Assembly: GCF_003611475.1 (NCBI RefSeq) | Contig: NZ_RAXT01000017.1 | Location: forward strand, 1-64,000 | Length of the DNA: 64,000 nt | Direction: 5' to 3' | Origin: Acinetobacter rongchengensis | Lineage (GTDB): Bacteria > Pseudomonadota > Gammaproteobacteria > Pseudomonadales > Moraxellaceae | In this document: positions 53,764 to 57,185 of the stretch, piece after piece | How positions within the stretch are numbered: the stretch's first letter is position 1 | How the letters are laid out: each line of letters begins with the position of its first letter | Program-made: the position numbers and the translations under genes | Notes under the pieces: model-generated | Databases searched by the model: none | What the model saw: the letters and a program-made list of their open reading frames with translations, nothing else | What the model was told of the DNA's origin: nothing

Positions 53764-55098
<1,335 letters not shown>

Positions 55099-55161: not shown

Positions 55162-56328
55162 TTAAATTTTTTCGACTTTCCACTCATCTGCAACAAGTAC
55201 CATTTGGTGTGTTGCGTTTGGAACAGAGCTTAAATCATCATTACCCAACAACTGTATTACACTTAAACCTTGGCTACGAGCTGTTGCAATCGCTGCCAAT
55301 AAAGCTTTGTCAGTACCCTTTGGTGCTACGACTTTTTCAATCTGTTTAAACTGACCTGCACTGAGTGCATAAAGATCACAACTAAAACCTGTTGCAGGAC
55401 GTGCACGACCAAAATGTTCACCAATACCATCGTATCGACCACCTAAAGCAAGTGGTGCAGCACGGTTTGGTGCATACACAGCATAAGTTAAACCTGTGTG
55501 GTAATGGTATGAACGCAGTTCCACAACATCGATACCGATGCGTAGTTTAGGCCAACGTGCTTGGATCTCGAGTTGAGTTGTCGTTAAAACATTAAACGCT
55601 TGTTTAAATGCTTCATCAGCTAAAATATTGACACTTAAATTGGCCTGTAATGCAGCCAAATCACTTGCATAACGACCTAAAGCATAAAAGTCTGAGCCGA
55701 ATTTCAATTCTTTTGTAAATTCTGCAAGTTCAGGTAATGCTTTGCGTTGATACAAATCAGAAAGTTGGCTCTCTGTATCTTTGCTTAAACCTGCTTGCTT
55801 GACTAAACTTCTAAATAAACCGACATGCCCTAAGTCTAAATGAGCACTTTCCACCAACCCTGCTGTTTCAAGCAAACCCAGCATCACGTCAATCATTTCA
55901 ACGTCTGCATCAATGCTGTCTGAACCAAAAAGTTCTGCACCTAACTGTAAAGGTGCACGTGTGGTATTAAAACCTTGAGGTTTGGTATGAAGGACAGTTC
56001 CTGCATAACAGTAACGCGCCACACCTTGTACTGGATGTACATGGGCATCGATACGTGCCACTTGCGGTGTCATATCGGCACGCACACCAAGCAAACGACC
56101 TGAAAGTTGGTCGATGACTTTGAAAGTGGCTAAGTCTAAATCTTGATTCGATTCGGAAAGAGAAGAAAGAGATTCGATGTATTCGATAAATGGCGTGTAC
56201 ACCAACTGATAACCTCGAGATGCGAGGAAATCTAAAGCTTCACGGCGCAATTGTTCAATAATTTGCGCTTGCTCTGGTAACACATCAGCTACACCATCAG
56301 GTAATAACCATGTCTCTGAAATGGGCAT
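55162..56328 (-). CDS. hisZ: ATP phosphoribosyltransferase regulatory subunit HisZ
   Basis: The 388-residue protein resembles a class II histidyl-tRNA synthetase catalytic domain but lacks the anticodon-binding domain. The motifs TPFIEYIESLS, RADMTPQVARIDAH, YCYAGTVLHTKP and ALGGRYDGIGEHF are present. HisZ partners the short-form HisG in histidine synthesis and confers feedback control; hisG is not in this window. It is followed by purA. Its leader (56329-56400) contains a strong intrinsic terminator 43 bases before the start, which suggests attenuation or a residue of a lost upstream gene. Confidence 0.95.
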   Translation of the reverse strand: MPISETWLLPDGVADVLPEQAQIIEQLRREALDFLASRGYQLVYTPFIEYIESLSSLSESNQDLDLATFKVIDQLSGRLLGVRADMTPQVARIDAHVHPVQGVARYCYAGTVLHTKPQGFNTTRAPLQLGAELFGSDSIDADVEMIDVMLGLLETAGLVESAHLDLGHVGLFRSLVKQAGLSKDTESQLSDLYQRKALPELAEFTKELKFGSDFYALGRYASDLAALQANLSVNILADEAFKQAFNVLTTTQLEIQARWPKLRIGIDVVELRSYHYHTGLTYAVYAPNRAAPLALGGRYDGIGEHFGRARPATGFSCDLYALSAGQFKQIEKVVAPKGTDKALLAAIATARSQGLSVIQLLGNDDLSSVPNATHQMVLVADEWKVEKI

Positions 56329-56675
56329 GTTGTAAACCTAAATCCTGTCTGCGCGGCACAAATCCGCATAAAAAAATCGGGAGCACACCCGATTTCTCTT
56401 AGTTTACCACGTTCATTTGCGCTATGCATTAATAAAATAACTTTTGCATAACGAATAATGTGATGCTTTAAACACATTTTAATCAAATCCCCAACTTCTT
56501 TTCAAAACCAAGATAAAACTGCATGTTCACATATAGTACTTACCACACTAAAGTTATTTTATTACAAAGACTTATACCAATATTTTGGTTGATATTTTCA
56601 TCTATAAATTTATAATTTTAACGTTGAAAATACATACAAATTTTGAAAAAACACAACAACACTTTGGGGAAATTT
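56329..56675. other. Leader of hisZ and 5' region of the divergent acidic protein
   Basis: The 347 bases contain the terminator hairpin at 56371-56395 and otherwise AT-rich DNA. The hflK/hflC genes that precede hisZ in some gammaproteobacteria are absent. GGGGA before 56676 is the ribosome site of the next gene. Confidence 0.45.
56371..56395 (-). terminator. Intrinsic terminator in the hisZ leader
   Basis: On the minus strand an 8-bp perfect stem (AAATCGGG / CCCGATTT) with a 6-base loop is followed by T residues, ending 43 bases before the hisZ ATG. No minus-strand gene lies upstream, so it acts inside the hisZ leader if the promoter is further up. Confidence 0.75.
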
Positions 56676-57185
56676 ATGGAAATGCACAGCAATGTTTATT
56701 ACAAACATGCAGATTCAAAAGTTATGGCTGACTTGGATCGTTTATTTAAAGAGCATCAAGGCGATAAAGATAAGTTCATTGCAGCTGCAACAATACTAAA
56801 TCCTGAGCATGGTCAAGAACTTGCATCAGACCTTTTAGATAGTGTGGATAATATCGAATTCGATCTTGGTCCTGAAACCATTCAGTCTGTCGAAGGTTAT
56901 TCTATTGCTCATTTTGTTCACGGTTCATCTGGCGATGAGTTTATTGAGGCTATTTTACTGTTCTTAAAAGCTTTAGTTGCAGATATTGATACTCGAGCAT
57001 GGGGTTGCGGTGATGATGACCCATGGGAGTTTTGGCTCAAATTTGAAGGTGATGAACTGGTCCGTGAAGATGATGAGCCGTTTAATGATCCTGAAGAAGA
57101 TGAAGAAATCAAAGCCTCGATTTATACATGGTGGCACGATGGCCTACCTGAAAGTATCAAAGAAGGTTTTCTAAACGAAGAATAA
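56676..57185 (+). CDS. Acidic hypothetical protein
   Basis: This is a 169-residue soluble, strongly acidic protein. Start ATG 56676 is chosen because GGGGA lies five bases upstream; a TTG at 56643 would extend it and ATG 56682 would shorten it. No family is recognised. The segment DTRAWGCGDDDPWEFWLKFE (about 106-125) is rich in Trp and Asp and is followed by an Asp/Glu stretch, possibly a metal- or protein-binding surface. The C-terminal YTWWHDGLPESIKEGF is also aromatic-acidic. The acidity recalls immunity or inhibitor proteins, but there is no partner gene next to it. Confidence 0.6.
   Translation: MEMHSNVYYKHADSKVMADLDRLFKEHQGDKDKFIAAATILNPEHGQELASDLLDSVDNIEFDLGPETIQSVEGYSIAHFVHGSSGDEFIEAILLFLKALVADIDTRAWGCGDDDPWEFWLKFEGDELVREDDEPFNDPEEDEEIKASIYTWWHDGLPESIKEGFLNEE

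Follow-up and report, generated by a model that had tools for sequence, protein, structure and literature searches.

A conserved terminator hairpin at the predicted transcription start of hisZ-purA in Acinetobacter and related genomes

In Acinetobacter, the genes hisZ and purA are preceded by an extended -10 box that is followed, after a nearly fixed gap, by a short hairpin and a run of seven T. Comparison between genomes establishes that the -10 box is conserved, that its distance to the stem and the length of the T-run hardly change, that the pairing of the stem is maintained, and that the element is linked to hisZ. From this arrangement we infer where transcription starts, where it terminates and how it might be regulated. 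On balance, it seems probable that the hisZ-purA promoter is fused to an intrinsic terminator beginning at the first transcribed base, and that part of the transcription is released as RNAs of about 25 nt. The fixed pairing of start and stop points to a control of hisZ-purA within the first 25 or so bases. We thus favour the first alternative of the original prediction made for this DNA, that the hairpin is an attenuator of the hisZ-purA transcript.

RNA polymerase would bind the extended -10 box and begin at the foot of the hairpin, and about 20 nucleotides at the start of the transcript would fold into a GC-rich hairpin with a U tract at once after it. Some polymerases would then release the RNA of about 25 nt, others would escape into a 66-nt leader and on into hisZ-purA, and the expression level would be fixed at promoter escape. 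Read-through could be set by the exact start site, by the supply of the initiating NTP or by factors bound to RNA polymerase, or the terminating fraction could be constant; an upstream antiterminator RNA is not expected to set it, since there are a few nucleotides at most before the stem. If true, this would also show how Acinetobacter throttles hisZ-purA, in which the synthesis of histidine is joined to that of AMP. The usual attenuation models need RNA upstream of the terminator, and they do not easily explain one that is attached to the very start of a housekeeping operon and has been retained across much of an order. Such a terminator provides a natural and widely sampled test bed for two questions: whether an intrinsic terminator acts on a 25-nt transcript, and whether the choice of the start site decides between termination and read-through.

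The hairpin, the promoter-like box and the predicted start

The window, i.e., the whole stretch of DNA analysed, comprises 64,000 nucleotides of a contig of Acinetobacter rongchengensis. On its minus strand, the hairpin (H1) reads AAATCGGG-TGTGCT-CCCGATTT and is followed by seven T, whose end is 41 nt from the ATG of hisZ (42 if the end is set at 56371, as originally predicted). The features of the region are listed in Table 1. The prediction of a perfect 8-bp stem with a T tract in front of hisZ was correct in place and form. It had also stated that no gene lies upstream on the hisZ strand and that the next gene is divergent, and indeed no minus-strand ORF of at least 80 aa was found upstream of the hairpin before the divergent plus-strand ORF, which itself has no Pfam match at E 0.001.

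Table 1. Features of the hisZ-purA region, in window coordinates.
Feature	Position	Strand	Basis or remark
purA (adenylosuccinate synthetase)	53764-55083	-	PF00709; 78 nt after hisZ, same strand
hisZ (ATP phosphoribosyltransferase regulatory subunit)	55162-56328	-	PF13393, histidyl-tRNA synthetase-like domain; name hisZ from the original prediction
Likely Shine-Dalgarno AGG of hisZ	56337-56339	-	8 nt before ATG; TTTAGG invariant in 33 aligned rows
Second hairpin H2, GCGG...CCGC	56354-56367	-	Directly after the T-run
T7 (U7) tract of intrinsic terminator	56370-56376	-	3 of the 7 T also paired in the stem
Hairpin H1, 8-bp perfect stem AAATCGGG/CCCGATTT, 6-base loop TGTGCT	56374-56395	-	Sequence, covariation, fold
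Predicted transcription start, foot of the stem (about 56394)	56393-56395	-	6-8 nt after the -10 box
Predicted extended -10 box of the hisZ promoter, TGGTAAACT	56401-56409	-	Conservation with the hairpin; control against other terminators
Possible -35 region ATGCAT (often GTGCAT or GTGCAC in relatives)	56424-56429	-	17 bp before the -10 box; weak consensus match; by eye
Divergent neighbour ORF, 169 aa	56676-57185	+	Can start at ATG 56676

By sequence, covariation and fold, this is a GC-rich hairpin with a U-rich tract directly after it, as in intrinsic (Rho-independent) terminators. A consensus scan reports H1 on the plus strand only; the longer T-run is that of the minus strand. The 25-nt RNA counted from the predicted start has a folding energy of -9.2 kcal/mol (z = -3.4), a value that none of 200 shuffled sequences reached. 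The fold is well above chance, yet its stability is moderate rather than extreme, and it is likewise only moderate in Acinetobacter at large (about -9 to -10 kcal/mol). For the whole 66-nt leader, the fold is not better than that of shuffled sequences, 55 of 200 of which do equally well (z = -0.5). Rfam yielded no family for the element: the search of window positions 56200-56700 at E up to 5 gave three weak matches, all far under their gathering scores, and the search for cis-regulatory RNAs (T-box, riboswitch and others) in eight relatives gave none at the gathering score.

The TGGTAAACT box is separated from the H1 stem by the five bases AAGAG. Transcription is expected to start 6-8 nt after a -10 box, and the spacing of five bases therefore places the predicted start at the foot of the hairpin. 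A pattern search for TGnTAnnnT followed by a hairpin succeeded in 130 of 140 hisZ leader loci. Pairing begins 6-8 nt after the -10 box in 78 of 92 distinct elements; with the predicted start, the RNA ahead of the stem is then about 0-2 nt long in these and at most 5 nt in the rest. The patterns behind the counts of the 140 loci, the 92 elements, and the 120 leaders and family loci given below were written after the sequences had been seen, and their positives are thus selected. Of 68 distinct elements, 62 have 7-8 nt between the -10 box and the GC core of the stem and the other six have 9 or 10, whereas the distance from element to hisZ varies between 29 and 524 nt (36 genomes). In elements of the CCGGG/CCGAG type, the fifth base after the -10 box is C in 35 of 45, the sixth is A in 39 and the seventh is A in 38, which fits the pyrimidine-purine step expected at a transcription start. 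The start should matter for the fold: the predicted energy goes from -9.2 kcal/mol for a transcript beginning at base 7 after the -10 box to -4.5 for one beginning at base 11.

The predicted start also bears on the kind of attenuation. That the hairpin is conserved, accompanies hisZ and lies just downstream of a promoter-like box upholds the idea of an attenuator, which had been made to depend on such conservation. The classical version, with an alternative anti-terminator pairing, finds no support: if the predicted start is right, most elements have only about 0-2 nt of RNA ahead of the stem. A leader peptide does not fit either: no run of His codons was seen by eye in the window's leader and, if the predicted start is right, there is no room for such an ORF before the stem.

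Conservation within Acinetobacter and pairing of the stem

The -10 box, the stem and the T-run were found together in 80 of 80 named Acinetobacter loci and in 40 of 40 further loci, i.e., in all 120 leaders, the window included. One of the loci with the element, L102, comes from a strain of A. baylyi other than the laboratory strain ADP1. Some of the 40 repeat named species, and they include 17 genomes that have a HisZ hit and no match to a 192-nt leader query. This query matched 81 of 99 Acinetobacter genomes. By eye, 71 of these matches run from the -10 box or earlier to at most 6 nt from the hisZ start; the other 10 are partial, one of them off the conserved part of the leader. Only five matches, that of the window among them, reach further than about 25 nt beyond the -10 box on its upstream side. 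In the 120 leaders, the nearest upstream ORF differs in kind; counted mechanically, with some spurious ORFs included, it is on the same strand in 107, on the opposite one in 11 and absent in two.

The stem pattern TCGGG-N4-8-CCCGATTTTT occurs at the hisZ leader in all 13 Acinetobacter genomes searched, and it has a single copy in 12 of them and two in the window's own. In the latter genome, the hisZ leader is the only match of model R1 below E = 1 (4e-7; the next is at 1.15). Model R1 includes the -10 box, so its matches lean towards sites that have one.

The pairing of the stem was assessed in an alignment of 47 rows (the window and 46 of the 68 distinct elements). In these chosen leaders, 95.4% of the pair cells hold standard pairs, a proportion that falls to 59% when the partner is shifted by one column, and both sides have changed in 34 cells against a mean of 11.8 in shuffles. 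Two other measures of covariation are not above shuffles (pairs with double changes, 3 versus 2.7; further pair types, 6 versus 6.8), because the changes are confined to few columns (UA to CG, GC to AU, AU to GC). The stem varies between TCGGG/CCCGA, CCGAG/CTCGG and CCGGG/CCCGG, and the length of the loop varies too.

Reach across the order and linkage to hisZ

Outside the genus, the element is frequent though not universal. In the same family, it was found in 12 of 20 loci from 14 genus labels, one of the eight misses being cut by a contig end, and in 12 of 19 further loci (11 by pattern and L201 by model R1). This second set originally had 20 loci, from which L203 (112 bases at a contig end) was omitted; L208 was omitted from the locus search with model R1. 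In other families of the order, which we take to be Pseudomonadales, model R1 finds the element on the hisZ strand in 15 of 20 loci, six of the 15 being in its training set; the 20 loci had been picked from the list of HisZ hits before their leaders were seen. The exact extended -10 box is present in 14 of the 15 positive loci, and L181 has a further variant, identified by eye.

At E 0.05, model R1 matches 104 of 194 genomes of the order. In all 30 loci of its best matches, the window included, hisZ is downstream on the same strand. We then related 45 matches to 69 hisZ places, leaving out weak HisZ matches and the window. A match lies at hisZ in 36 of the 69 genomes with a placed hisZ (30 of 63 outside the training set), and nine of the 45 matches are not at hisZ, two of these being in genomes without a placed hisZ. 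The other 33 of the 69 genomes have no model R1 match at hisZ; in one of them, G262, the element was found by pattern.

A control made without model R1 used terminators with the stem fixed as CCGGG. When an extended -10 box was required at 5-9 nt, 24 sites were found in 76 genomes of the order, and all 24 are upstream of hisZ. Without this condition there are 87 sites: 27 at hisZ, of which 24 have the exact box and three do not, and 60 elsewhere, of which none has it. The latter are strand-sites and correspond to about 42 distinct places, as 17 symmetric terminators were counted on both strands and one site is the back of a hisZ element. The linkage gives a Fisher p of about 2e-18, which is only a guide because the genomes are related. 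The background in Acinetobacter was taken from a sample of 464 kb, into which two hisZ leaders had been put on purpose. It has 112 strict terminator-like sites, and an extended -10 box occurs 2-10 nt before the stem in these two leaders and in none of the other 110. A plain TAnnnT box at this distance is common (23 of 112 sites), so only the extended form discriminates.

At the level of the class, eight of 274 genomes have a model R1 match at E 0.01, among them three members of the order itself (the window's own genome, G245 and G260). The six matches in the other five genomes have neither hisZ nor purA in the stretch of about 3 kb inspected and look like ordinary terminators. The purA gene of Escherichia coli K-12, taken as an outgroup, has a promoter-like TGGTAGAAT and no hairpin.

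Alternative readings and known systems

The surroundings of the element in the order suggest another role, which we regard as rather unlikely: a one-way gate, whose terminator would halt read-through from hflKC or another neighbour and let pass the polymerase that started at its foot. The native hairpin would form too early, with sigma still bound and the RNA too short, so that hisZ-purA would be insulated and keep its own promoter. In 27 of the 29 best-match loci other than the window, a same-strand ORF ends 27-158 nt before the element, where a terminator of hflKC is expected, and the stem and T7 of the element are those of a true terminator. This ORF is presumably HflC-like, and the short ORF that separates element and hisZ in many of these loci DUF2065-like (both names from sequence resemblance). 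However, the element persists also beside a divergent upstream gene, as found in the window and in eight relatives that share this neighbour. Insulation would be equally good with a terminator ahead of the promoter, and L176 seems, by eye, to be built in this way. Finally, the nearly fixed gap to the -10 box would require an additional reason. The original prediction had noted that hflC precedes hisZ in several relatives, which holds elsewhere in the order, where the element is mostly between the hflC-like gene and hisZ. Given this gene order, the element may well predate the loss of hflC here.

The hairpin could instead cap the mRNA at its 5' end against RppH and RNase E, with termination weak or incidental. 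We consider this distinctly unlikely, although the start is predicted at or beside the first paired base in those 78 of 92 elements. In ompA and papA, the mRNA likewise begins with a stem, a position that in hisZ is predicted. Such stabilising stem-loops are not known to require a U7 tract. Stem-loops of this kind that stabilise mRNAs are known in E. coli, according to titles cited in PMC3997798, and the parts of that article consulted indicate that the RppH of Bacillus subtilis needs at least two unpaired 5' nucleotides. What a cap leaves unexplained is the T-run, which has exactly seven T after the stem in 85 of the 92 elements in spite of changes in the stem. This constancy, and its persistence as the stem sequence changes, argue for a real terminator over a mere 5' cap.

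It is very improbable that the dyad, at +1 to +20, acts as a repressor site in DNA rather than as an RNA structure. A position over the transcription start is typical of operators and speaks for it. Some candidate attenuators were also earlier assigned to palindromic sites that transcription factors bind (Naville and Gautheret, PMC2965389, in the parts consulted). Yet the half-site sequence and spacing that an operator would keep fixed vary here in both arms and loop, and the T7 follows the dyad. In L181 (genome G292), about 40 extra nucleotides in the terminator loop form a long stem, the leader folding as a single long hairpin in which the -10 box, foot, T7 and GTG are kept. That the hairpin is the functionless scar of a lost upstream gene's terminator, the second alternative originally put forward, is barely credible: it may once have served hflKC, given the HflC-like gene upstream in other families of the order, but all 120 Acinetobacter leaders keep it while the upstream ORF changes in kind and orientation, and DNA well upstream of the -10 box aligns only in the closest relatives.

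We return to the promoter fused to a terminator. An intrinsic terminator may not be efficient on a 25-nt RNA, perhaps with sigma still bound, and a polymerase so near its promoter may be poor at termination. No sensor or regulator of the element was found in this analysis. A further suggestion, tentative and with the balance against it, is that these leaders represent a class of promoter-escape attenuators, in which the terminator would begin at +1, there would be no sensor RNA, and read-through would be set by the initiation event. In one form, transcription would begin a few bases further along, through NTP supply or nanoRNA priming, and the stem would lose pairs; in another, a polymerase born at the foot would pass and an incoming one would be stopped.

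The nearest known case that we found is GraL, in the greA leader of E. coli. The consulted text of PMC6829880 places its terminator at +19 to +48, reports that GreA regulates its own gene through it, and calls the system complex to class as attenuator or riboswitch. As predicted for hisZ, a terminator is close behind the gene's own promoter and a short RNA is released; the word "antiterminator" is absent from that text, although Naville and Gautheret do see antiterminators in greA leaders (PMC2965389, in part). GraL differs in that its hairpin is preceded by about 19 nt that matter for regulation (PMC6829880, in part), whereas the hisZ stem begins directly at the predicted +1; the genes are unrelated. 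The hisZ leader of Bacillus, a predicted attenuator (Naville and Gautheret 2010), shares a 5' terminator before hisZ but contains a short ORF that includes a series of His codons (PMC2965389, in part); no such ORF is seen in the window's leader, and Acinetobacter is not mentioned in the main text of that article. By prediction, the hisZ leaders have the geometry of GraL, with the terminator no further than about 50 nt from where transcription of the gene itself begins.

To our knowledge, no regulator of the AlpA kind acts at the hisZ leader. The AlpA/tB system of Pseudomonas aeruginosa and the lambdoid Q systems also have a promoter followed by an intrinsic terminator that RNA polymerase must pass; AlpA differs in that it binds between the -10 and -35 elements and binds RNA polymerase (PMC9371919, in the parts consulted). 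Neither hisZ nor purA occurs in the consulted part of the TSS-EMOTE paper, and no description of the element in Acinetobacter or its relatives was found among the matches listed. Since GraL is the nearest case, the Bacillus hisZ leader is of another type, and there is neither an Rfam family nor a description among the matches listed, we file the element, within these matches, as a previously undescribed form of promoter-proximal terminator in a leader. A hairpin terminator is reportedly linked to initiation events also in the antitermination by tiny abortive RNAs of T7, to judge by the title of a 2010 study by Lee, Nguyen and Kang; that system, unlike the present one, has a phage polymerase.

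Three other candidates in the window were rejected. One was a small RNA of about 100 nt that would be transcribed from a promoter-like site (56505-56476), might contain a stem CGTTATGCA/TGCATAGCG (by eye) and would end at the hairpin; it was dropped because, outside the closest relatives, this region does not align with the window. A pairing between GTAAACT and AGGTTTAC, close to the hisZ start (152-nt fold, z = -2.9), was dropped as the -10 sequence differs in most relatives, and a leader ORF (ATGCGG...) because its frame and stops differ between species and no Shine-Dalgarno sequence was seen by eye. The second hairpin, H2, is conserved in Acinetobacter: in an alignment of 33 rows (the window and 32 of 60 distinct leaders), two of its four pairs show compensatory changes in both arms (e.g., GTGG/CCAC and GCGA/TCGC).

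Within Acinetobacter, the neighbour of hisZ changes often while the leader stays fixed: among the loci L031-L110, look-alikes of an Lrp-type regulator, an isochorismatase, a GAPDH-like protein and a lipoprotein were seen by eye, and an ORF similar to the divergent 169-aa neighbour lies beside hisZ in eight of the 80 named loci (by eye). Seven loci elsewhere (L124, L126, L128, L202, L205, L206 and L207) have boxes like the extended -10 before hisZ, as judged by eye, and no hairpin by eye or pattern; they are possible secondary losses of the terminator alone. In L176 (genome G244), a terminator hairpin upstream of hisZ has no -10 box in front and a -10-like TGTAAAAT downstream (by eye), which looks like the ordinary arrangement and a natural contrast to the fused promoter and terminator.
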